A stretch of DNA of 64,000 nt, taken from Haloferula sp. BvORR071. Lineage in GTDB: Bacteria; Verrucomicrobiota; Verrucomicrobiia; Verrucomicrobiales; Akkermansiaceae. Shown here piece by piece: positions 5,359 through 45,758 of this stretch (positions within the stretch are counted from its first letter, which is position 1; every line of letters starts with the position of its first letter). A model generated the notes under the pieces. That model worked only from the letters and a program-made list of their open reading frames with translations. It searched no databases and was not told where the DNA came from. The position numbers and the translations under genes are program-made. Location of the stretch: the NCBI RefSeq assembly GCF_000739615.1, contig NZ_BATP01000032.1, positions 124,001 to 188,000 of the forward strand. The letters run 5' to 3'.

Positions 5359-7539
5359 TCAAGCGGGCTGCAAGGATGCCCCCCGGGCCTCGATGGCGCG
5401 GAAGAGCCTCAGTTTCCCGTAACTCATGCGGCCGCCGAGCTGCTCGAAGATGGGCTTGAGGGCGAGATCGTCGGAGCCTTCGAAGGCGGCGCGCATTTCT
5501 GCTTCCTCTTTCTCGGAATAGCAGCGGCGTGGGTCGATGTCCTCGCCGGACTCGATGATCGCGCCGAGGTGGCTTTCGATGGTGGAGATGGCCAGCCCAC
5601 GTTTGGCGGCAATCTCATCCATGTTTTTGCCCGCACGCCAGAGTTCCAAGGTGGCGAAGGTGGTGCCATTGAGCACGGGTTTTGGAACGGAAGCCCTTGG
5701 ATCAGGCAGGGGTGCAAACTTCCGGCGCTCATGGGTTTCCAGCCATGTGGAAACCTCGCGGAGGAAGCCGGGACCGTAGTCATTGAGCTTGCGATCGCCG
5801 ACACCGGGGATGCGGGCGAAAGCGGCTTTGTCGCCGGGGTATTCGCGGGCCATGTGGCGCAGGGACACATCAGAGAAGACGACGTAGGGTGGCACCCCGG
5901 CAGCGTCGGCGACCTGCTTGCGGTGATTGCGAAGAGCCTCGAAAAGCTCCGCGTCGCACTCGATGTCACCGGCTCGACGAGTGGTGGTTTTCTCTCCCTC
6001 CATCAGGCGGGTGAGGCTGACAGCGCGGCGCTCACGAAGTATGGCGACGCCTTCGTCGGTGACGGAGATCACGGGATAGTTCCCGCCATCCACGGCAAAC
6101 CAGCCCTTGCGCACAAGGGTGCGGGCGATCTCCGCCCACTTGGCGGCGGAGTGCTCCTTGCCGATGCCGTAAGTACTAAGCTTATCGTGCTTACGGGCCA
6201 AGATCTTCTCGGCACGGGAGCCTGCCAGGATGTCGGCCAAGTGGCGGATGCCTACGGGTGGACCGCCAGCCTGCTTCACGCGGATGACACAGCTGATCAG
6301 CTTCTGCGTTTCCACGGTTGCGTCCCAGTTCCCTCGCGGGGCCAGGCAGTTGTCGCAGGCACCGCAGTTTTCCTCCGGCCACGATTCGCCGAAGTAGTCT
6401 AACAGGCCGATCCGCCGACAGGCATCGCTCTCGGCGAAGTCGGCCATGTGCTCGAGCTGTTCGCGGGCGTTGTCGCGGGCTTCCTCATCGCTGATATCGG
6501 CGATGAAACGCTGCTGCTTCACAATATCGCCGCGGGTGAAGAGCAGCAGGCAATCGGCCGGCAGGCCATCGCGACCGGCGCGGCCGGTTTCCTGATAGTA
6601 GCCTTCAAGGTTCTTCGGCAGATCGGCATGGATCACGAAGCGGACGTCGGGCTTGTTGATGCCCATGCCGAAGGCGACGGTGGCGCATACCACGCGGACC
6701 TCATCGCGCAGGAAGGCTTCCTGGTTCCGAGCCCGCTCCGCGGTTTCCAGCCCGGCGTGGTAGCAGACGGCGGGGATCCCGGAGGCACGGAGGCTGGCAG
6801 CGAGTTCCTCGGTACGCTTGCGCGACTGGGCATAGACGATGCCGGACTCCTGTCCGCGCTCGCGGATGAAGTGAACGACGCGGGCGAGCGCATCCTGCTT
6901 GGGCTCGACCAGGTAGTTCAGGTTCGGGCGGTTGAAGCTGGCGAGGAAGGCCGCCGGATCGCGCAGGCCGAGTTGGACGAGGATGTCATCGCGCACCCGC
7001 GGCGTGGCGGTGGCGGTCAGGGCGATGGCGGGCACTTGCGGCAGCGCCTGGCGGAGTTCGCGCAGCCGCCGGTACTCCGGCCTGAAATCGTGGCCCCATT
7101 CGCTGATGCAGTGGGCCTCATCCACGGCCAAGGCGGTGACATTCCAGCGCTGGACCTCAGCGAGAAAGGCGCCGGACATGAGCCGCTCGGGAGCCAGATA
7201 GACAAGCTTGAAGTCGCCGTTGCGGATCGCCTCGATGCGGTCGCGGTTCTCCTGCATGCCCAGCGTGGAATTGAGGAAGGTGGCCGCCACACCTGCTGCG
7301 GTAAGCTGGTCCACTTGGTCCTTCATCAGCGCGATCAGCGGGGAGACGACCAGGGTCACTCCTTCCCGGGCGAGTGCCGGAAGTTGGTAGCAGAGACTCT
7401 TGCCCGCGCCGGTCGGCAGGATCGCCAGCACATCCCGGCGGGCGAGGGCGGCCTCGACGATCTCCCGCTGCAAGGGGCGGAAGCTGTCGTAGCCGAAATG
7501 CGTTTTGAGCAGGCGGGAGAGGGGGATGCCTGTGGTCAT
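5359..7539 (-). CDS. recQ: ATP-dependent DNA helicase RecQ
   Basis: This 726-residue protein has the complete RecQ order. The helicase core has Walker A PTGAGKS (residues 42-48) and the DEAH box in AVDEAHCISEWGHDF (near residue 138). The Arg/Gly-rich motif VI lies in YYQETGRAGRDG. A RecQ zinc-binding segment follows (CRRIGLLDYFGESWPEENCGACDNC region, four Cys). Next are a winged-helix RQC domain and an HRDC domain (LFEALRNHRKQVADAAGVPP). The last 120 residues form a helix-turn-helix-like tail (MDEIAAKRGLAISTIESHL), also seen in longer bacterial RecQ proteins. It unwinds DNA 3'-5' in recombination and fork repair. It is convergent with the dehydrogenase genes (15-base gap) and divergent from the Fur-family gene. 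Confidence 0.97.
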   Translation of the reverse strand: MTTGIPLSRLLKTHFGYDSFRPLQREIVEAALARRDVLAILPTGAGKSLCYQLPALAREGVTLVVSPLIALMKDQVDQLTAAGVAATFLNSTLGMQENRDRIEAIRNGDFKLVYLAPERLMSGAFLAEVQRWNVTALAVDEAHCISEWGHDFRPEYRRLRELRQALPQVPAIALTATATPRVRDDILVQLGLRDPAAFLASFNRPNLNYLVEPKQDALARVVHFIRERGQESGIVYAQSRKRTEELAASLRASGIPAVCYHAGLETAERARNQEAFLRDEVRVVCATVAFGMGINKPDVRFVIHADLPKNLEGYYQETGRAGRDGLPADCLLLFTRGDIVKQQRFIADISDEEARDNAREQLEHMADFAESDACRRIGLLDYFGESWPEENCGACDNCLAPRGNWDATVETQKLISCVIRVKQAGGPPVGIRHLADILAGSRAEKILARKHDKLSTYGIGKEHSAAKWAEIARTLVRKGWFAVDGGNYPVISVTDEGVAILRERRAVSLTRLMEGEKTTTRRAGDIECDAELFEALRNHRKQVADAAGVPPYVVFSDVSLRHMAREYPGDKAAFARIPGVGDRKLNDYGPGFLREVSTWLETHERRKFAPLPDPRASVPKPVLNGTTFATLELWRAGKNMDEIAAKRGLAISTIESHLGAIIESGEDIDPRRCYSEKEEAEMRAAFEGSDDLALKPIFEQLGGRMSYGKLRLFRAIEARGASLQPA

Positions 7540-7763
7540 GAATTGTCCTGATAACTGTTCATTAGATCAGTTCAAGGAGAATTTTTGATAAGACGCTCCT
7601 CCCTTTCCATCAAGGAGCCGGGGTGATCTCCCTAGCTCCCGGGGTCCGGTCACCCGCAGCGAGGACGACTGCTGCGAACCTAGCTCGCCCGTTGAAAAAG
7701 AGTTGCCCGAGAGCTTGGATCCACGCTACGCCACCAGTCCTTCAGTCAGGCTAAGAATTAAAA

Positions 7764-7778
7764 TTAGAATTATTCTTG
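7764..7778. promoter_or_regulatory. PerR/Fur-box-like operator upstream of the Fur-family gene
   Basis: The sequence TTAGAATTATTCTTG contains a perfect 5-1-5 inverted repeat, AGAAT-T-ATTCT (7766-7776). It closely resembles the 7-1-7 PerR box TTATAATnATTATAA. A second, weaker AT-rich half (TAAGAATTAAAATTA, 7752-7766) overlaps it on the left. The box sits about 40 bases before the ATG of the regulator, in a strikingly AT-rich patch, so autoregulation and control of the downstream suf genes are likely. Confidence 0.65.
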
Positions 7779-7817
7779 CCTTGGGGTAGACTAGTCGTAG
7801 CTTCCGCCGCCCCGTCC

Positions 7818-8261
7818 ATGGTCGATCTTTCAACAGACAGCGATTCCGACTTTTCCGCCGAAACCCCGGTGGAAACGGGAGGGCTGCGGATGACCAAGCA
7901 GCGGCAGGAGGTTTACCGCTTGCTTTTGGCGCAGCGTGACCACCCGACCGCCCAGGATGTGTTCATGCGGGTCAAGGACACCCTGCCCCACATTTCGCTC
8001 GCGACGGTTTACAACACTTTGGAAGCGCTGGTGCAGCACGGCTTGGTGCGGCAGGTCAATTTCGACCGCGAGCCTTCGCGCTTTTGCCCGAACCTGGCCG
8101 ACCACGGCCACTTCCACGACAAGACCAGCGGGAAGATCCATGATGTGACCTTCAAGCCGGGCGTCTGTGTCTCGGATCTCCTCGATCTGCCGGAAGGCGC
8201 GGTCGTCACCGGCATCGAAATCACCCTGCGCGGCGAGCTGCCTGCGGAGGGCGCTCGCTAA
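7818..8261 (+). CDS. Fur/PerR-family transcriptional regulator without CxxC zinc motifs
   Basis: The 147-residue protein has a Fur-type winged helix (about residues 20-85: RMTKQRQEVYRLLLAQ, PTAQDVF, ISLATVYNTLEALVQHGLV) and a short dimerisation domain. The usual HxHxxCxxCG segment reads HGHFHDKTSGKI, so the first CxxC is replaced by DxxS; the second C-terminal CxxC is absent too. Only two cysteines remain. Histidines and aspartates of the sensing site are kept. The start is set at ATG 7818; a TTG at 7776 lies inside the predicted operator. It directly precedes sufC (43-base gap), so it probably controls iron-sulphur assembly in response to iron, haem or peroxide. Whether it acts as Fur, PerR or Irr cannot be decided from sequence. 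Confidence 0.85.
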   Translation: MVDLSTDSDSDFSAETPVETGGLRMTKQRQEVYRLLLAQRDHPTAQDVFMRVKDTLPHISLATVYNTLEALVQHGLVRQVNFDREPSRFCPNLADHGHFHDKTSGKIHDVTFKPGVCVSDLLDLPEGAVVTGIEITLRGELPAEGAR

Positions 8262-37455: not shown

Positions 37456-37711
37456 TTCGCGGCGCAGCCGCTTTGGGAGTGCGCGCGAGAATCGCCGCTT
37501 TTTGGGCGCGTGTGGGCTTTGGGGCGACGCGCGAGTTCTAGGTGAAGTGACCACTACCTCAGGTGAAATGAGCGGTCCCCGGTGAAGGGGGCCGCTCTAT
37601 CCTCAGGTGGGGCTGTACCCCCCTAGAACTTGAATGGCGGTGATTTGGGAGACTTCGCAGAGAAAGCGGCGATTCTCGCGCGCACTCCCAAAGCGACTCT
37701 GTCGCAAAGGG
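37456..37711. repeat. Paired inverted REP-like repeat B with structured spacer
   Basis: The 33-base arm at 37469-37501 recurs exactly inverted at 37663-37695; the outer flanks are related but diverged (GGCGCAG against CTCTGTCGC). The spacer holds further palindromes, notably GTTCTAG (37535 region) against CTAGAAC (37623 region) and a GAGCGG/CCGCTC stem around 37575-37600. The arms share GCCGCTTTGGGAGTGCG with the RAYT-flanking repeats. It fills the 344-base gap between the DUF4139-like gene and csoR, with no gene inside. Confidence 0.8.
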
Positions 37712-37773
37712 TAGCACGTAGGCTGAAAGCACAGCCTGAGGTCGGGGCGAAATTTCCATTTGCAGGAATACAT

Positions 37774-37790
37774 ATACCCCCTATGGGTAT
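37774..37790. promoter_or_regulatory. CsoR operator
   Basis: ATACCC-CCTAT-GGGTAT is an exact inverted repeat that matches the CsoR copper-responsive operator type (ATACCC...GGGTAT with a GC-rich middle). It lies 4 bases before the start codon of csoR, so copper-free CsoR would block its own operon. Confidence 0.8.
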
Positions 37791-37794
37791 CTGC

Positions 37795-38070
37795 ATGGAA
37801 CGCAGTTGCCACGACAGCGCCCCCCTTCTCGGCCGGGTGAACCGGATTGCCGGGCAGGTTCAGGGGATCGGACGGATGATCACGGAGAACCGGGATTGTC
37901 CGGAGATCCTGCACACGATCTCCGCGATTCACTCCGCGCTGCGCGGTCTGGAGGCGAAACTTCTGGAGGACCACGTGCGCCACTGCGTGACGGAGGCGGC
38001 GACCGACTCAAAGCAGCTCGACCGCCGGATGGAGGAGTTGATCGCGCTCTACAAGCGGCGCCTGGCCTGA
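37795..38070 (+). CDS. csoR: Copper-sensing transcriptional repressor CsoR
   Basis: The 91-residue protein is a CsoR/RcnR-family (DUF156) all-alpha repressor. The Cu(I) ligands Cys35 (NRDCPEIL), His60 and Cys64 (EDHVRHC) have the same spacing as Cys36-His61-Cys65 of M. tuberculosis CsoR, which marks it as the copper type rather than RcnR or FrmR. It binds its operator without copper and releases it when Cu(I) is bound. The start is ATG 37795; ATG 37783 lies inside the operator. The permease gene follows 20 bases downstream. Confidence 0.93.
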   Translation: MERSCHDSAPLLGRVNRIAGQVQGIGRMITENRDCPEILHTISAIHSALRGLEAKLLEDHVRHCVTEAATDSKQLDRRMEELIALYKRRLA

Positions 38071-38090
38071 ACCCCAATCCTGGACCTACG

Positions 38091-39269
38091 ATGTCATCTT
38101 CTTGCCATAATCATCAGGAATCCGCGGACCTCGAAGCCCGCCCCTCATGCTGCGCTCCCGCCCCTGCGAAGGAAATCAAGCCATCGTGCTGTGGCGGTGG
38201 TGGAGAGGTGCAGATGGCCTCTTGCTGCGGCGGAGGTGCGGAGCAGGCCGCTTCGTGCTGCGGCACTTCCGCGAAGCGCAGGGTTGATTGGATTTTGTGG
38301 GGCTCTCTCGTCTTGGTCGCCGTGGGGATCGTGGGGCACTTCATCGGCGGCGGTCCCGCGTGGTGGGGGACCTTCGCGCACGGCAGTTACGAATTCATGT
38401 CGAAGGCTTGGTGGGGCCTGCTGGCGGGTATCGTCGCGGTCGGCGTGATCGGACGCTTGCCGGAAAATCTGGTGCCGGGCCTGTTAGGCCGGGGTGGCAC
38501 TTTCGGCGGGATCCTGCGGGCGACCTTCGCCGGCGTGCTGCTGGACCTCTGCAACCACGGGATCCTGATGGTCGGCGCGCAGCTCTATCGCAAGGGCGCC
38601 TCGCTCGGCCAGACGGTGGCGTTCCTGGTGGCCAGCCCTTGGAACTCGCTTTCGTTGACCCTGATCCTGGCCGCAATGATTGGCTGGAAGTGGATGCTGC
38701 TCTTCATCGTGGCGTCGATGGTGATCGGGATTCTCACCGGCTGGATCATCGACCTGCTGGTGAAGCGCGGCAAGCTGCCGGCGAATGCGAATGCCCGCGA
38801 GCTGCCGGATGATTTCTGCTTCGGGCCGGCCTTCCGGGAAGCCTTTGGCAGGCTGAAGCCGAATGCGGCGAACCTGCGGGAGATCGCGCGGACCGGGATG
38901 TCCGAGTCGCGGATGATCCTACGCTGGATCTTCCTCGGTGTGGTGATCGCCGCGGCGATCCGGGCCTTCGTGCCGCCGGATAAGTTCCACGCCATCTTCG
39001 GTCCCACGCTGCTGGGTCTGATCAGCACCTTGGTGGCGACGACGCTCATCGAAGTCTGCTCGGAAGGCTCCAGCCCGATCGCCGCGGACCTGCTGACCCG
39101 TGCCGCCGCGCCGGGCAATGCCTTCACCTTCCTGATGGCCGGTGCCGCCACCGACTACACCGAAGTGATGGTGCTGCGCGAGATCACCAAGTCCTGGAAG
39201 GCGGCGCTCGCACTGCCCCTGATCACGGTGCCGCAGGTGCTGCTGATCGGCTGGTTGCTGAATCAGTGA
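38091..39269 (+). CDS. ArsP/SO_0444-type permease with Cys-rich N-terminus
   Basis: The 392-residue protein has a cytoplasmic-looking head of about 60 residues with at least five Cys pairs or Cys-His clusters (SSSCHNHQ, SCCAP, SCCGGGG, SCCGGGA, SCCGTS) and then about ten membrane spans of the DUF318/ArsP permease type (LLDLCNHGILMVGAQLY, SPWNSLSLTLIL, TTLIEVCSEGSSPIAADLL). It is thought to export metals or arsenic compounds, and the Cys-rich head fits loading with Cu(I) or Zn(II). It is directly downstream of csoR and probably under its control. Confidence 0.88.
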   Translation: MSSSCHNHQESADLEARPSCCAPAPAKEIKPSCCGGGGEVQMASCCGGGAEQAASCCGTSAKRRVDWILWGSLVLVAVGIVGHFIGGGPAWWGTFAHGSYEFMSKAWWGLLAGIVAVGVIGRLPENLVPGLLGRGGTFGGILRATFAGVLLDLCNHGILMVGAQLYRKGASLGQTVAFLVASPWNSLSLTLILAAMIGWKWMLLFIVASMVIGILTGWIIDLLVKRGKLPANANARELPDDFCFGPAFREAFGRLKPNAANLREIARTGMSESRMILRWIFLGVVIAAAIRAFVPPDKFHAIFGPTLLGLISTLVATTLIEVCSEGSSPIAADLLTRAAAPGNAFTFLMAGAATDYTEVMVLREITKSWKAALALPLITVPQVLLIGWLLNQ

Positions 39270-39707: not shown

Positions 39708-40013
39708 ATGAACGACTCCGAATTTGATGAGCTGCTGAGGAGGGCGGCAAGGGACGAAGCGCCCTTGCCTCCGTCCTTCCGGCAAGGGGTGTGGCACCGC
39801 ATCGAAATGGCGGCGCAGCATCCTCCGGAAGGGATTCCTTGGCTCGCGGCCGTGGCCGCTGTCTTCAGCCGCCCGTGGGGAGCCTTCGCGAGTGTGGCAA
39901 CGACCGTGGCTTTGGGACTTTGGTTGGGAGCCGCGAGCTTGCCGGAAGCACCGGATGCCAAGGCTGCCTATGCCGAATCCATCAGTCCCTTTGCCCACAC
40001 CACCGCGAAGTGA
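39708..40013 (+). CDS. CnrY-like anti-sigma factor candidate
   Basis: The 101-residue protein has a short cytoplasmic head (MNDSEFDELLRRAARDEAP), one membrane span (about residues 57-77, GAFASVATTVALGLWLGAA) and a short periplasmic tail. This size and topology match CnrY-type anti-sigma factors, and the next two genes are a periplasmic metal sensor and an ECF sigma factor in the same order as cnrYXH. Sequence identity to CnrY is not claimed. Confidence 0.6.
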   Translation: MNDSEFDELLRRAARDEAPLPPSFRQGVWHRIEMAAQHPPEGIPWLAAVAAVFSRPWGAFASVATTVALGLWLGAASLPEAPDAKAAYAESISPFAHTTAK

Positions 40014-40014
40014 A

Positions 40015-40479
40015 ATGAAGAAAGGGCTGACGATTCTTATCCTCGCGCTGCTGGGCGGCGTCCTCGCGTTCTGCCTCATGCGTTCGCACAAGATGGCAGA
40101 ACGGCAGGAGACCTTGCTCGACTCCATGCCCGAGCTCTCTTGGCTGCGCAGCGAGCTGAAGCTCAGCGATGATCAGTTCGCGCGGGTTTCCGAGTTGCAT
40201 GCAGCCTACCGGCCGAAGTGCATGGAAATGTGCCAGCGCATCGCTGCCGCTCGCTCAAAGGTCGAGACGCTCGCTCGGGCCAGCCGTGAGGTCAGTCCTG
40301 AGCTCGAGGCGGCGCTGAAGGAACATGCGGAGACCGACGCCCAGTGTCGGCGGGCGATGGTGCAACACATGTACGAAACCGCTGCGGTTCTCGATTCCGA
40401 TCAGGCGGCCCGCTATCTGGAAACGATGTTGCCCTTGGCGCTGGAGGGCAGCCATGGCGATCCGCATGGCGGTCACTAG
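40015..40479 (+). CDS. Periplasmic heavy-metal sensor (CnrX/Spy-like)
   Basis: The 154-residue protein has an N-terminal membrane anchor (MKKGLTILILALLGGVLAFC) and an all-helical periplasmic part with two LxxxQ-type motifs (LKLSDDQFARV and LDSDQAARYLETML), as in the Spy/CpxP and CnrX sensors. The tail is His-rich (GSHGDPHGGH). In CnrX, metal binding releases the anti-sigma factor. It starts one base after the stop of the anti-sigma candidate, and the sigma gene follows after 12 bases. Confidence 0.75.
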   Translation: MKKGLTILILALLGGVLAFCLMRSHKMAERQETLLDSMPELSWLRSELKLSDDQFARVSELHAAYRPKCMEMCQRIAAARSKVETLARASREVSPELEAALKEHAETDAQCRRAMVQHMYETAAVLDSDQAARYLETMLPLALEGSHGDPHGGH

Positions 40480-40491
40480 GACAGCACCGCT

Positions 40492-41061
40492 ATGGACCTT
40501 TCCGATGCCGAATTGATGGGTCGTCTGGCACGGGGCGAGGATCTCGCGTTGAATTCTCTGATGGACCGCTGGGGCGCACGAATCACCTCGTTCCTGCACA
40601 AGATGACGGGCAATCGCGAAACTGCCGACGATCTGGCGCAAGAGACCTTCGTGAAGCTCTACCAGTCGTGTGCGCGCTACCGTCCCAGCGGAAGTTTCAG
40701 CACCTATCTGTTCACGATTGCATCCAACCTCGCGCGCAATCACGCCCGCTGGAGAATCCGCCATCCCGCGCTGGAATTGGATGCTGCGGCTGACGGTGCG
40801 GGTCATGCCGCGCTTGAGCCGGCCGATCCCGGGAAGACCCCGGAGGAGGCAGCCCAAGCAAGCGAACGGGCCCAGGCGATCGACGATGAGTTCTTGAAAC
40901 TCCCTGACGACTTGCGGGAGGCGATGTCGCTCTTTATCTACGAGGATATGAGCTATGCGGACATTGCCGCGATCACCCGTTGCAGTCCGAAGGCAGTGGA
41001 GACCCGCATCTATCGGGCCCGCCAGATCCTCAAGGAACGACTCAAGCATTTCGGGTCCTGA
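40492..41061 (+). CDS. ECF-family RNA polymerase sigma factor (CnrH-like position)
   Basis: The 189-residue protein has sigma region 2 (GRLARGEDLALNSLMDRW, then QETFVKLYQSCARYRPSG with the -10 recognition helix) and region 4 (SYADIAAITRCSPKAVETRI, an HTH). The linker is Ala/Pro-rich. It has no signal peptide. Placed after an anti-sigma candidate and a periplasmic sensor, it completes a cnrYXH-like set, probably switched on by periplasmic metal. copA follows after 37 bases and may be a target or a co-transcribed gene. Confidence 0.9.
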   Translation: MDLSDAELMGRLARGEDLALNSLMDRWGARITSFLHKMTGNRETADDLAQETFVKLYQSCARYRPSGSFSTYLFTIASNLARNHARWRIRHPALELDAAADGAGHAALEPADPGKTPEEAAQASERAQAIDDEFLKLPDDLREAMSLFIYEDMSYADIAAITRCSPKAVETRIYRARQILKERLKHFGS

Positions 41062-41097: not shown

Positions 41098-43209
41098 ATG
41101 AAAGCACTCCTCATCTTCCTTCCTGCTCTCTTTCTAACAGCCGCGCAGGCGCGCGTGGTCGAATACAACCTGGAAGTCGCCGAACAAGCGTGGAGCCCCG
41201 AGCCGGGTATCAAGACGGTGCGGGCGCTGACCTTGAACGGCGGCGTCCCGGGGCCGACGCTGCGCTTCCACGAAGGCGACATCGCGCGGATCCACGTGCA
41301 CAACAGCCTGAAGCATGACGAAACCTCGATTCACTGGCACGGCGTGCTGGTGCCGAATGCTCAGGACGGGGTGCCCTACCTCACCACGCCGCCGATCAAG
41401 GCGGGCACCACGCACACCTTCGAGTTTCCGCTCAAGCACTCCGGCACCTATTGGTATCACAGCCACACCGGCTTGCAGGAACAGCAGGGCGTCTATGGCT
41501 CGATCGTGATCGAGCCGAAGGGCGGGGAGCCGGTGCATGCCGCGCGGGAGCAGGTGGTGGTGCTGTCCGACTGGACCACCGAGAATCCGCACGAGGTGAT
41601 GCGCACGCTGATGCGGGGCAGCGATTGGTATGCCATCCGCAAGGGCAGCGCGCAGAGCCTCACCGGCGCGGCCCGGGCCGGGGCCATGAAGGATTTCTGG
41701 GAGCGCGAGCGGATGCGCATGCCGGCGATGGATATTTCCGATGTCGCCTATGATGCCTTCCTGGCGAACGGGAAGCGCGCGATCCAGGTGCCGGGGAAGC
41801 CGGGCGAGCGGGTGCGGCTGCGCTTCATCAACTCCGCCGCCTCCACCTACTTCTATTTGGAGTCTGCGACCGGGCCGATGACGATCGTGGCGGCGGATGG
41901 TCCGGCGGTGAAACCGCTCTCGGTGAAGCGGCTGCTGGTCGGGATGGCAGAGACCTACGATGTGATTGTCCGGGTGCCGGAGTCCGGCCAATGGGAGGTG
42001 CGGGCTACCTCTCAGGATGGCTCCGGCCATGCCTCGGTTCTGCTTGGCAGTGGCGAGCTGCACGCCGCCCCGGAGATCCCGCGCCCGGACCTCTATCGCA
42101 TGGACTACATGACGGCCGGCCTGAACGACATGGACGACGGCATGGACATGGAGGGGATGAATCACTCCGCCATGTCGATGCAGGGCATGGACATGGGCGG
42201 CATGAAGGGCATGGACCACGGCAAGATGGACATGGGCGGGAACGAGAGCGAGCGGCCCCTGGCACCTTACTCGAAGCTGCATGCCACCAAGAGCACCGCT
42301 TACGATTCCTCTCATCCGCGTCGCACGATCCCGCTGCGCCTGACCGGCGACATGGAGCGCTACATCTGGTCCTTCAATGGCAAGACCATGGCGGAGGACG
42401 GCGTGATCAAGATCAAGCGCGGTGAGGTGCTGCGGCTGGAAATGGTGAACGACACCATGATGCATCACCCGATCCACCTGCACGGCCACTTCTTCCGCGT
42501 GTTGGAGGGGCAGGGCAGCGATGCCCCGCTCAAGCACACCATCGACGTGCCGCCGATGGGCAAGCGCACGATCGAATTCGAGGCGGACGAGAGCGGCGAC
42601 TGGCTCTTCCACTGCCACTTGCTCTACCACATGCATGCCGGGATGGCGCGGGTCTTCTCTTACGAGGAGCAGGGACCGGAGCACATGCCGCAGATGGGCG
42701 AGCACGCGGAGGATCCCTTTTACGCGATGATCGACGGCTCAGTTCAGAGCCACATGAGCATGGGGATGCTGACCTTCATGAACTCGCACAACGACTTCTT
42801 CGGCACCTGGGATGTCGGCTACGGCCACCACGAAGAGGACGAGACCATGTATGAAATCGAGGCGGGCTGGAAACGCTACTTCAACCCGAACTTCTCCACG
42901 GTGCTCGGCTACCGCTTCACCAACATGGAGGACGAGGAAGACCGGGCCTTTGCCGGCTTCCAGTACCGGCTGCCCTATCTGGTGTGGAGTTCCGTCCAAT
43001 TCGACACCGCGGGCGACCTGCGCCTCGGCCTGGCGAAGAGCCTCCAGATCACCGACCGCCTCGGGGTCTTCGGCGAGGCCCGCTACGATACCGGCAGCGA
43101 GTGGGAGTGGACGCTCGGCGCCGAATACACCCTGACCAAGCAATTCTCCCTGGTCACCCAATACCATTCCGATCACGGCTTCGGGGCCGGCTTCGGATTC
43201 CATTTCTAA
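41098..43209 (+). CDS. copA: Multicopper oxidase CopA fused to a CopB-like outer-membrane barrel
   Basis: The 703-residue protein has a signal peptide (about 1-18) and a three-domain multicopper oxidase (about 20-530). Copper sites are HWHGVL (near 79), WYHSHTG (near 119), HPIHLHGHFF (near 457) and HCHLLYHMHAGM (near 505). A Met-rich insert (about 345-382; repeated MDMGGM, MKGMDHGKMDM) is typical of CopA/CueO copper oxidases. From about 535 the chain becomes CopB-like: EDPFYAMIDG, then amphipathic strands to the terminal GFGAGFGFHF ending in Phe. In other bacteria copA and copB are separate genes. It would oxidise Cu(I) in the periplasm while anchored in the outer membrane. Confidence 0.9.
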   Translation: MKALLIFLPALFLTAAQARVVEYNLEVAEQAWSPEPGIKTVRALTLNGGVPGPTLRFHEGDIARIHVHNSLKHDETSIHWHGVLVPNAQDGVPYLTTPPIKAGTTHTFEFPLKHSGTYWYHSHTGLQEQQGVYGSIVIEPKGGEPVHAAREQVVVLSDWTTENPHEVMRTLMRGSDWYAIRKGSAQSLTGAARAGAMKDFWERERMRMPAMDISDVAYDAFLANGKRAIQVPGKPGERVRLRFINSAASTYFYLESATGPMTIVAADGPAVKPLSVKRLLVGMAETYDVIVRVPESGQWEVRATSQDGSGHASVLLGSGELHAAPEIPRPDLYRMDYMTAGLNDMDDGMDMEGMNHSAMSMQGMDMGGMKGMDHGKMDMGGNESERPLAPYSKLHATKSTAYDSSHPRRTIPLRLTGDMERYIWSFNGKTMAEDGVIKIKRGEVLRLEMVNDTMMHHPIHLHGHFFRVLEGQGSDAPLKHTIDVPPMGKRTIEFEADESGDWLFHCHLLYHMHAGMARVFSYEEQGPEHMPQMGEHAEDPFYAMIDGSVQSHMSMGMLTFMNSHNDFFGTWDVGYGHHEEDETMYEIEAGWKRYFNPNFSTVLGYRFTNMEDEEDRAFAGFQYRLPYLVWSSVQFDTAGDLRLGLAKSLQITDRLGVFGEARYDTGSEWEWTLGAEYTLTKQFSLVTQYHSDHGFGAGFGFHF

Positions 43210-43237: not shown

Positions 43238-43489
43238 ATGAAAACGACCCTTATGCTTATCGCCACCGCGATCCTTGCCTCCTGCGCCGCCAGCGGTGGT
43301 GGCAGTGCCAGCACGGCTGCCGTGAAACGTTACAACCGCGACACCTGCGTCGTGGGCGACAACAAGCTCGGCTCAATGGGGACTCCCGTCACCAAGGTCT
43401 ATGGCGACCAAGAGGTGAAGTTCTGCTGCAAGCCCTGCGTGGCCAAGTTCGAGAAGAATCCCGGGAAGTATCTGGCCAAACTGCACTGA
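43238..43489 (+). CDS. YHS/TRASH-type small lipoprotein A
   Basis: The 83-residue protein has a lipoprotein signal (LIATAILASCA) and a short domain with CVVGDNKLGSMGTPVTKVYG and KFCCKPCVAKFEKNPGKYL, which matches the YHS/TRASH pattern (C...CCxPC, ends in FxxNPxKY). YHS domains bind copper and other metals. It follows the copA fusion by 28 bases on the same strand, so it is probably part of the copper operon. Confidence 0.82.
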   Translation: MKTTLMLIATAILASCAASGGGSASTAAVKRYNRDTCVVGDNKLGSMGTPVTKVYGDQEVKFCCKPCVAKFEKNPGKYLAKLH

Positions 43490-43513: not shown

Positions 43514-43825
43514 ATGAAACCCTTCTTCCTGCTTCTGGCTGCCTGCGTCTTCGCCTCCTGCGCCACCACCAAGCCGGATCCGGCGGCGGCGAACGCCCCG
43601 GCCGGCAAGAAAGCGCACTCCAAAAAGGTCGCCAAAAACGAGGCCAAGCCGAAGCCCTATCCGCTGAAGAAATGCCTGGTCACCGGTGACGGGCTGGACG
43701 ACATGGACGAGCGGGTGACGACCGTTTACAAGGGCCAGACCTTCGAATTCTGCTGCAAGCCCTGCCTGAAGAAGTTCAACAAGAACCCGGAGAAATATCT
43801 CACGGCTCTAGAAAAGGCTAACTGA
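43514..43825 (+). CDS. YHS/TRASH-type small lipoprotein B
   Basis: This 103-residue paralogue of the preceding gene has a lipoprotein signal (LLLAACVFASCA), a Lys/Ala-rich linker (GKKAHSKKVAKNEAKPKPYP) and the same metal-binding core (CLVTGDGLDDMDERVTTVYK and EFCCKPCLKKFNKNPEKYL). The tandem pair probably arose by duplication; the linker differs strongly. It lies 24 bases after its sister gene. Confidence 0.82.
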   Translation: MKPFFLLLAACVFASCATTKPDPAAANAPAGKKAHSKKVAKNEAKPKPYPLKKCLVTGDGLDDMDERVTTVYKGQTFEFCCKPCLKKFNKNPEKYLTALEKAN

Positions 43826-43877
43826 TAGAGCGGCGGAACTTGTGTCGCGGCGGACCCGGTGCTATGACCGCGGCGTA

Positions 43878-45758
43878 GTGACCTTTTGTCGTCCCGCGGT
43901 CCGTCACCTCATGGCAGCGCTATTGCTGCTATCCGTCCCGGCGTGCCGCAGTCCGCAGCGGGAGGCGATCCGGACCCTGCAGAAACGCGGGGTGGACCCG
44001 ACCGCCGCCTCGCTGCTGACGGCGGTGCAGGCGGGCGATGCCGATCTTGCGCGCCTGCTGCTGCAGGCGCGCGTCTATACCGGCCAGCGCGATGCGGAGG
44101 GTAACAGCCCGCTACACATCGCGATCGACAAGGGGAACCTGGCGATTGCCTGGGGTCTGATTGAGAATGGTGCGGATCTCGGTGCAACCACGCCTGGCGG
44201 TGTCACCGCCGTTTCGCTGGCTGTTTGCCGTGGCGAGACGGCGATCACCGAGCGCCTGCTGAATGCCGGAGCACCGCCGGAGGGCAAAACGCCCGATGGC
44301 GATCAGGTGCTTCCCTGGGCGATTCGCCACGGGCGGCTTTCTTTTGTGGAGCGCCTGATGAAGGGCGGTGCCGATCCGCACCAGAAGGATGCGGCGGGCA
44401 ATCCTCTGCTGCATGTGGCGATCGAGTCCGGCCGTCGCGATCTGATGGCGGAGCTCCTGAAACTTGGAGCGGATGCCGCGGCGGTGAATGGCCCGGGCGA
44501 GTCCTCGCTGGTAGCGGCCTTGCGCAAGGATTGGCGGGACCTCGCCAAGCCGTTGGTGATGGCGGGGGCGGATCCGAATCTCCGTGATCGCAATGGCAAG
44601 GTGCCACTGCAGGCGGCGCTCGATGCGCGGGACTTGGACCTCGCGAAGCTTTTGGTGGGAGTGGGCGCGCGCCCACTCGATGGCTCGTGGGCGACCGCCT
44701 TGTGGAAGGCGTATGGCGCGCGGGACATTGAGGTGTGCCGCTTGCTGATGGGCTTGGGGATCTCGCCGGAGACCCGCGACGCGAAGGGACGCCGGCCGGT
44801 GGAAGCCGCCTTGGTCGATGACCGTCCGGATTTCCTGCATCTCTTCCTGTGCTATGGCGCGGATGGCCGGGGGCTCTTCTACGAGGCCAGCCGCCGCGGT
44901 GCGCGGGATGAACTTGAATTGCTGCTCGGCCACTGTGGCCTGCCCGGGCCCATGCCCGCGCCCTTCATCGATACCCCCTTGGGTGTGGCGATCCGCCATG
45001 GCGACCAGCGGACGGTGGAGAAGCTCTTGGAATTCGGGGCCTCGCCGGTGGAGCCGATTGGAGAAGGCCAGGCGCCGCTGCAGTTGGCGATCGTGCTCGG
45101 CCAGTCGCGGATCGTGAAGAGCCTGCTGATGGCCGGGGCGGATGCAAATACGGCCCTGAACCTGCCGGCTTCGGAGAGCTTCATCCGCCATGTGCGGGGT
45201 GGGACGATGCGCTGGCTGCTGCGGCACGACAAGAACATCACCCCCCTGATGCTGGCGGTGGATGCCGGGAATGCCGAGAGCGCCCGCCAGTTGATGGCGG
45301 CCGGCGCCAAGACCGAGGTCTGGACCAAGCCGAGCCGGATGTGGCCGATCAACATCGCCGCCCGCAAGAGCGACGTGAAGATGATGCGGGTGCTGCTCGG
45401 CAAGGATCCGGCAGTCGAGCAGCGCCGGATTGTAGTGGATCTCTCCGACCAGAAGGCGTGGATCTTCGATTCCTCCGGCTTGGAGCTCTACAGCACCCAG
45501 GTCTCCACCGGCCGTTCCGGCTTCGCGACGCCGACCGGGACTTACGCGATCACCAACAAGTACAAGACCTGGACCTCCACCTTGTATGCCGCGAGCATGC
45601 CCTTCTTCCAGCGCTTGAGCTGCGGGGACTTCGGCTTCCACCAGGGCGTGGTGCCGGGCTATCCGGCCTCGCACGGCTGCATCCGCGTGCCCTATGGGAA
45701 TGCGACGAAGCTATTCTCGCTGACGGAGCTGGGGGACCGGGTGGAGATCCGGCCGTGA
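43878..45758 (+). CDS. Ankyrin-repeat lipoprotein with C-terminal L,D-transpeptidase domain
   Basis: The roughly 626-residue protein has a lipoprotein signal (ALLLLSVPACR) and about a dozen ankyrin repeats (for example NSPLHIAIDKGNLAIAWGLI, NPLLHVAIESGRRDLMAELL). A YkuD-type L,D-transpeptidase domain occupies about 525-626, with active-site motif SHGCIRVPYGN and the preceding HQG. It should cross-link peptidoglycan or attach lipoprotein, with ankyrins binding a partner in the periplasm. The start is GTG 43878, giving an arginine-bearing n-region; GTG 43842 and ATG 43911 are alternatives. It is convergent with the exoprotease gene. Confidence 0.88.
   Translation: MTFCRPAVRHLMAALLLLSVPACRSPQREAIRTLQKRGVDPTAASLLTAVQAGDADLARLLLQARVYTGQRDAEGNSPLHIAIDKGNLAIAWGLIENGADLGATTPGGVTAVSLAVCRGETAITERLLNAGAPPEGKTPDGDQVLPWAIRHGRLSFVERLMKGGADPHQKDAAGNPLLHVAIESGRRDLMAELLKLGADAAAVNGPGESSLVAALRKDWRDLAKPLVMAGADPNLRDRNGKVPLQAALDARDLDLAKLLVGVGARPLDGSWATALWKAYGARDIEVCRLLMGLGISPETRDAKGRRPVEAALVDDRPDFLHLFLCYGADGRGLFYEASRRGARDELELLLGHCGLPGPMPAPFIDTPLGVAIRHGDQRTVEKLLEFGASPVEPIGEGQAPLQLAIVLGQSRIVKSLLMAGADANTALNLPASESFIRHVRGGTMRWLLRHDKNITPLMLAVDAGNAESARQLMAAGAKTEVWTKPSRMWPINIAARKSDVKMMRVLLGKDPAVEQRRIVVDLSDQKAWIFDSSGLELYSTQVSTGRSGFATPTGTYAITNKYKTWTSTLYAASMPFFQRLSCGDFGFHQGVVPGYPASHGCIRVPYGNATKLFSLTELGDRVEIRP

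Follow-up and report, generated by a model that had tools for sequence, protein, structure and literature searches.

The 64,000-nucleotide stretch of the Haloferula sp. BvORR071 genome analysed here, referred to as the window, contains a gene whose predicted product is supported by sequence comparisons and structure models as a CopA-type multicopper oxidase carrying a CopB-like outer-membrane barrel at its C-terminus. Such a fusion would fix the oxidase to the outer membrane. Fused genes appear to be widespread as an alternative to split copA and copB, with a changed export signal. Taken as a whole, the data are probably best explained by a Sec-exported protein whose barrel is inserted by BAM, with a Cu(I) oxidase tethered beneath it. 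The parts of the protein and the neighboring genes are given in Table 1.

Table 1. Features of the fused oxidase gene and its surroundings (positions in the window)
Feature	Position	Strand	Basis
CsoR/FrmR-type repressor, then ArsP-type permease	37630-39269	+	Domain search
Metal_resist protein, possible periplasmic metal sensor	40015..40479	+	PF13801 E 9.3e-11, stretch scanned from 40012
ECF-type sigma factor	40492..41061	+	Sigma70_r2 E 3.5e-17, Sigma70_r4_2 E 2.6e-13
Signal peptide, residues 1-18	41098..41151	+	Sec-type by eye, without twin arginine; sequence MKALLIFLPALFLTAAQA
CopA-type multicopper oxidase, three domains, residues 19-522	41152..42663	+	Pfam, TIGR01480, ligand conservation
Met/His/Asp-rich insert, residues ~337-382	42106..42243	+	Sequence; low pLDDT
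Linker from oxidase to first barrel strand, residues 523-541	42664..42720	+	Strand boundaries in model
Predicted CopB/PcoB-like 12-stranded barrel, residues 542-703, C-terminal Phe, stop codon	42721..43209	+	Predicted models, structure and profile comparison
Small YHS/TRASH-type protein with KFCCKPC	43238..43489	+	PF24273 and PF04945, both below cut-off
Second YHS protein with EFCCKPC	43514..43825	+	PF04945 E 9.5e-11, 42 bits (cut-off 30.3)

The open reading frame at 41098-43209 of the forward strand is uninterrupted for 703 codons, which agrees with the initial annotation of an oxidase running without a stop into a C-terminal segment. That annotation also described the oxidase as complete, with its copper motifs and a Met-rich insert, and these points were confirmed. 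All three copper oxidase domains were matched by Pfam: Cu-oxidase_3 at residues 30-141 (E 1.5e-42), Cu-oxidase at 152-307 (E 4.1e-19) and Cu-oxidase_2 at 407-524 (E 6.4e-36). The best NCBIfam model was TIGR01480, the copper-resistance oxidase, with 435.3 bits, which falls short of its curated cut-off of 478.95 bits. Twelve residues, H79, H81, H121, H123, H457, H460, H462, H505, C506, H507, H511 and M516, were invariant among 51 aligned fused proteins, and we take them to be the copper ligands. The insert is predicted to be disordered, as residues 349-382 are the only stretch of the AlphaFold2 model with a pLDDT below 50. The signal peptide was modeled as a helix at residues 2-15.

The C-terminal half was modeled with AlphaFold2 both within the whole protein and by itself. 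Twelve strands were predicted for residues 542-703 each time, with a pLDDT of 91.5 for the model of the whole protein and 93.2 for the barrel part alone. Phe703 closes the predicted barrel, in line with the terminal Phe pointed out earlier; in an alignment of 81 fused barrels, the final position is occupied by F in 49 sequences and by Y in 30. According to the available text of the report on the PcoB crystal structure, PcoB also has 12 strands, and both of its ends lie on the same side, which was read as periplasmic (PMC9210255). The 50 matches listed for a fold search with the whole protein were laccases and other oxidases and, therefore, the barrel was predicted and searched by itself. With the modeled barrel, Foldseek placed PcoB (7pge) first among solved structures (E 1.4e-6, the next being 8.7e-5). 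VIA-align also ranked 7pge first, with Z 16.3 and an rmsd of 3.3 over 161 aligned residues. Other 12-stranded barrels scored near PcoB (VhGalP, Z 15.2; OMPLA, Z 15.1), and this margin is small enough that kinship is not provable from the fold alone.

The initial annotation had called the C-terminal segment CopB-like. Family profiles and structure upheld this description, but the HMM search for CopB that the annotation itself had proposed did not, as Pfam PF05275 (gathering score 27 bits) matched neither the window protein nor any other protein of the genome up to a limit of E 10. Among the 51 fused proteins, PF05275 matched 10 with an E of 1 or less (best 1.8e-4), whereas nine matched a generic barrel family (best E 0.001). 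In the fused proteins of five genomes of the window's class (G042, G124, G152, G180 and G147), the weak CopB match lay in one and the same region, profile positions 49-141 of 208. Pfam and NCBIfam gave only matches below their cut-offs for the C-terminal half of the window protein, namely OMP_b-brl (E 0.0033), Porin_4 (E 0.037) and PorV (E 0.077). PHROGs yielded two weak matches without an assigned function (E 0.019 and 0.069), and no relatives of the barrel half were found among viral contigs.

The relationship with CopB was clearer in profile comparisons. In hhalign, a profile of 21 fused barrels matched a profile of seven split CopB sequences at 93.4%. With 81 fused barrels, the match to the CopB profile was 95.1% over 137 columns, and with a profile of 21 CopB sequences it was 96.1%. 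The latter two matches were collinear over 130-138 columns. Reversed-sequence controls gave 0.6% and 1.6% in the run with 81 fused barrels and 2.5% in the run with 21 CopB sequences. A generic outer-membrane protein control, built from 15 OMP_b-brl stretches, reached 82%, over 40 columns only. An OmpW control was dropped because a single genome of 57 had OmpW, which did not suffice for a profile. Across 296 genomes belonging to the same phylum as Bizionia argentinensis, the fused-barrel profile detected the CopB gene itself in two of the 22 CopB genomes (G778, 3.3e-6; G754, 6.0e-6). From these profiles, we conclude that the fused barrel is a remote homologue of CopB, a sister group lying outside PF05275 as curated.

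The barrel could be an outer-membrane anchor only, which holds the oxidase without passing copper, a reading that overlaps with our best explanation and that we consider rather unlikely. It would account for the closeness of the fold to OMPLA, KdgM and VhGalP and for the 82% reached by the generic profile. It also fits the search of PDB sequences with a profile of 21 fused tails, in which a designed 12-stranded barrel, 9fdg (E 1.2e-4), came before 7pge (E 0.005); since a de novo protein outranks PcoB there, the sequence signal is partly general barrel character. PcoB is described in the available text as binding copper in its pore through an acid pair, D97/E207 (PMC9210255). This pair could not be recognized in the fused barrels, as hhalign does not align the first strands reliably; near the E207 position, 75 of 81 fused proteins have K or R. 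A mere anchor is harder to reconcile with PcoB leading both structure rankings and with the length of the collinear match to CopB. It also does not explain why the fused barrel replaces CopB across genomes, with none carrying both and none of 72 oxidase-bearing genomes carrying neither.

This replacement was seen in two sets of genomes. In the class of the window genome (188 genomes), 36 genomes had a match to the whole protein: 22 fused, seven split and seven with distant oxidases only, the last being excluded to leave a count of 29. CopB above the cut-off occurred only in the seven split genomes, where copB adjoins copA, and no genome of the 188 had both forms. In one of the 22 fused genomes (G100), the barrel part contains an in-frame TGA. 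Among the 296 genomes of the Bizionia phylum, the oxidase was found in 72, the fused-type barrel in 51 and CopB in 22. The 72 oxidase-bearing genomes divide into 51 fused and 21 split, and the only CopB genome outside them, G711, holds a fragment. The count of 51 was reached after removing G754 and G778 from 53 barrel-positive genomes, as their weak match sits in the CopB gene itself. The fused frame is at least 710 codons long in 48 of the 51 and is cut or broken in G541, G749 and G761. The overlap of fused barrels and CopB across the 296 genomes departs from random with a Fisher's p of 0.019, a test that ignores kinship. Thus, both states exist, the fused one is common beyond the window, and they exclude each other in the genomes examined. 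A family with oxidase and barrel joined, and without CopB above the Pfam cut-off in any of the 73 fused genomes (22 + 51), suggests that PcoA and PcoB work jointly at the outer membrane.

A scan of genome records gave 107 confirmed fused loci, 80 of which were listed. Among the matches listed, the loci are labeled Verrucomicrobiota, Bacteroidota, Nitrospirota, Acidobacteriota, Thermodesulfobacteriota, Myxococcota, Kiritimatiellota, Elusimicrobia, Bdellovibrionota and an alphaproteobacterial MAG; many of these records are MAGs. Fused genes were also found on plasmids of Ilyobacter (Fusobacteriota), Spirosoma, Hymenobacter and Mucilaginibacter. The barrel half goes unnamed in annotation, as the 20 listed plasmid records describe the product as, for example, 'multicopper oxidase domain-containing protein'.

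Homologues also speak to the concern, raised in the initial annotation, that a frame error had joined two genes. No sign of such an error was found. In 13 of 14 split plasmids, the two genes overlap by four bases or are separated by no more than 47, so that one slip could merge copA with copB. Nevertheless, the barrel shares one frame with the HCH motif of the oxidase in all 80 listed loci, 77 of which also have HWHG in that frame. The lack of a stop in 703 codons, the presence of a second fused gene in the same genome and the far divergence of the barrel from CopB also argue against an artefact. We rejected this explanation, whose probability we regard as negligible, because homologues carry both halves in one frame.

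The second fused gene of the genome (C43; locus L209, positions 5447-8023) has 858 codons from a TTG start. Its Met/His-rich insert is much longer than that of the window protein. On one side it is flanked by RND pump and YHS genes, the YHS match being weak and below the cut-off, and on the other side by MerR and P-type ATPase genes. Plasmid relatives of the fused gene likewise adjoin copper or heavy-metal ATPases or copper-binding proteins. These surroundings bear on the substrate of the oxidase. Multicopper oxidases accept a broad range of substrates, and the main one here could be another metal or an organic compound, such as Fe(II), Mn(II) or phenols, with copper detoxification a lesser role. 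The Met-rich insert, of a kind seen in cuprous oxidases, speaks for copper. The split PcoAB of iron oxidizers has been proposed, in the available text of that study, as a porin-oxidase pair possibly oxidizing Fe(II) (PMC5566968, 2017). With metal-resistance genes around both the second copy and the plasmid relatives, we find a different main substrate improbable.

The oxidase parts were compared in trees of a quick type, which are unrooted and carry SH-aLRT support only. The 103 fused and 23 split oxidases fell on opposite sides of one branch with a support of 100. The same separation was obtained for 50 fused and 42 split oxidases after adding 19 split copies from the Bizionia phylum. The 50 fused rows were taken from the 103 (16 chosen and 34 random), and the added copies represent every split genome of that phylum except G530 and G546 (19 of 21). 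Since most fused rows came from the barrel search, barrel-less members could not be revealed by the tree; the whole-protein searches cover them in its place. As the tree is unrooted, it is compatible with one origin of fusion and with one origin of splitting. The second copy sits on another branch than the window gene, near copies from Nitrospirota, Acidobacteriota and Thermodesulfobacteriota. Eight fused copies from one genus of the window's family (g2; L009-L016) nest within Bacteroidota, a placement that points to probable lateral transfer.

The two forms also differ in their export signals. Tat transports folded proteins, and BAM receives unfolded barrels from Sec. A BAM-assembled barrel thus needs Sec export, and absence of the Tat motif is expected in fused proteins. 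The window protein has no Tat motif by the motif rule. Under the strict rule, which was applied to both groups, the motif was found in 39 of 42 split CopA (20/23 in the first set and 19/19 in the added one) compared to one of 103 fused proteins, a doubtful case (L007); two of the 103 (L112 and L135) have no usable N-terminus. The difference between the fused proteins and the first split set gives a Fisher's p of 4e-19, with kinship ignored. The strict rule misses one split CopA that reads ISRRQLLK and is Tat-like (L208) and, therefore, 20/23 is a low figure. Two other split CopA, L168 and L175, have no Tat motif, with copB adjacent to both; a signal of the Sec type is thus not confined to fused proteins. 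They pair in the tree on long branches with a support of 95. A loose rule found the motif in 15 of 103 fused and 10 of 11 split proteins, many of the fused cases being in frame but upstream of the likely start codon. These Tat calls come from a motif rule rather than a trained predictor, and the fused signals were judged Sec-type by eye. At the level of sequence, the absence of the Tat motif is independent support for the predicted tail being a real outer-membrane barrel.

The join between the two halves is short. The linker is about 20 residues in the window protein, with a median of 23 aa in 81 fused proteins, four of which have a linker holding at least five His. A disordered His/Met-rich N-terminal domain before the barrel is absent from the window protein. 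In 14 examples of split CopB, the barrel is preceded by 26-231 residues, signal included. Five of the 14 have only 26-41 residues there, so the N-terminal domain is no strict criterion. In Caulobacter, as given in the available text, there is a four-base overlap between pcoA and pcoB, and deleting the disordered N-terminus of PcoB lowers the stability of PcoA, which the authors see as a possible docking site (PMC12509749). A four-base overlap was also found in six of the 14 split plasmid pairs that we measured. Since this N-terminal part of PcoB is missing in the fused form, covalent linkage may replace the docking of PcoA.

The fused architecture modifies a pair of proteins that is already known, and it had been glimpsed at least once in print. 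PcoA and PcoB of E. coli pco, CopA and CopB of Pseudomonas cop, and PcoAB of Caulobacter likewise combine a three-domain oxidase with a 12-stranded barrel, encoded side by side. They are made as two proteins, with CopA mostly carrying a Tat motif and CopB having an N-terminal part of its own, whereas the window gene encodes one protein without a Tat motif, in which a short linker leads to a barrel below the Pfam CopB cut-off. The same architecture as in the window is found in an oxidase of Bizionia argentinensis, G2EDV6, whose authors described residues 611-809 as apparently porin-like and somewhat similar to PcoB (PMC11213822, 2024). G2EDV6 is very probably our locus L105, an 810-codon frame from the same organism. 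The available text of that paper makes this remark about one protein and claims no family, CopB exclusion or export switch. The study of iron oxidizers shares the idea of PcoA and PcoB as one outer-membrane unit but, in the text available, as a hypothesis about separate proteins (PMC5566968), and the available text of PMC10654088 contained nothing relevant. No other reports of a joined or outer-membrane copper oxidase were found in the open-licence PMC literature, nor, in the text available there, any experiments on a fused protein. Judging from these searches, both the mutual exclusion of the two states and the Tat-to-Sec switch are new.

We propose that the polypeptide would be exported unfolded via Sec and that its C-terminal barrel would be placed in the outer membrane by BAM. 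If both barrel ends are periplasmic, the oxidase would hang on its linker below the periplasmic mouth of the barrel. There, the Met-rich loop may gather toxic Cu(I), and the oxidase may convert it to Cu(II) at a PcoB-like pore. Copper might then flow through the barrel, in one direction or the other; for PcoB, the direction of flux is disputed between import (PMC9210255, 2022) and efflux (PMC12509749, 2025) in the available texts. A more specific version, which we put forward only tentatively, is a covalent unit of oxidase and pore that oxidizes Cu(I) at the channel mouth and passes Cu(II) directly through, forming a second, long-standing type of periplasmic copper defence. Because the barrel is assembled unfolded, the oxidase of such a unit would use Sec instead of Tat, and its coppers would be loaded in the periplasm. 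If this is true, the fusion would amount to evidence from nature that PcoA and PcoB, where split, act as one complex. The fused family bears on whether PcoA and PcoB touch and on which way PcoB moves copper, and it offers a single protein for purification, reconstitution and structure determination. The swap of export signals puts the rule that BAM barrels are exported unfolded to a natural test, and it also bears on how multicopper oxidases are loaded after Sec export.

The surroundings of the window gene include candidate regulators. The ECF sigma factor gene ends 36 bp upstream of the oxidase start, and its product is the probable regulator of the oxidase gene. The Metal_resist protein could possibly sense metal for this sigma factor, a role that we assume by analogy with CnrX. 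A 101-aa protein without a Pfam match, the Metal_resist protein and the sigma factor are encoded consecutively at 39708-41061 of the forward strand. We take this row to resemble an anti-sigma/sensor/sigma set of the CnrYXH kind, and such a set may control the operon. Farther upstream, the ArsP-type permease has repeated SCC motifs in its N-terminal part.

Downstream, the small YHS/TRASH-type proteins are possibly periplasmic copper carriers for the fused oxidase. An FCC-type YHS motif just downstream of the fused gene was found in 12 of the 80 listed loci. Eleven of these 12 have verrucomicrobial titles, and the untitled remaining one (L070) groups with them in the tree. Farther downstream, a single protein encoded at 43842-45758 of the forward strand combines ankyrin repeats (six Ank_2 stretches) with an L,D-transpeptidase (YkuD) domain behind them.
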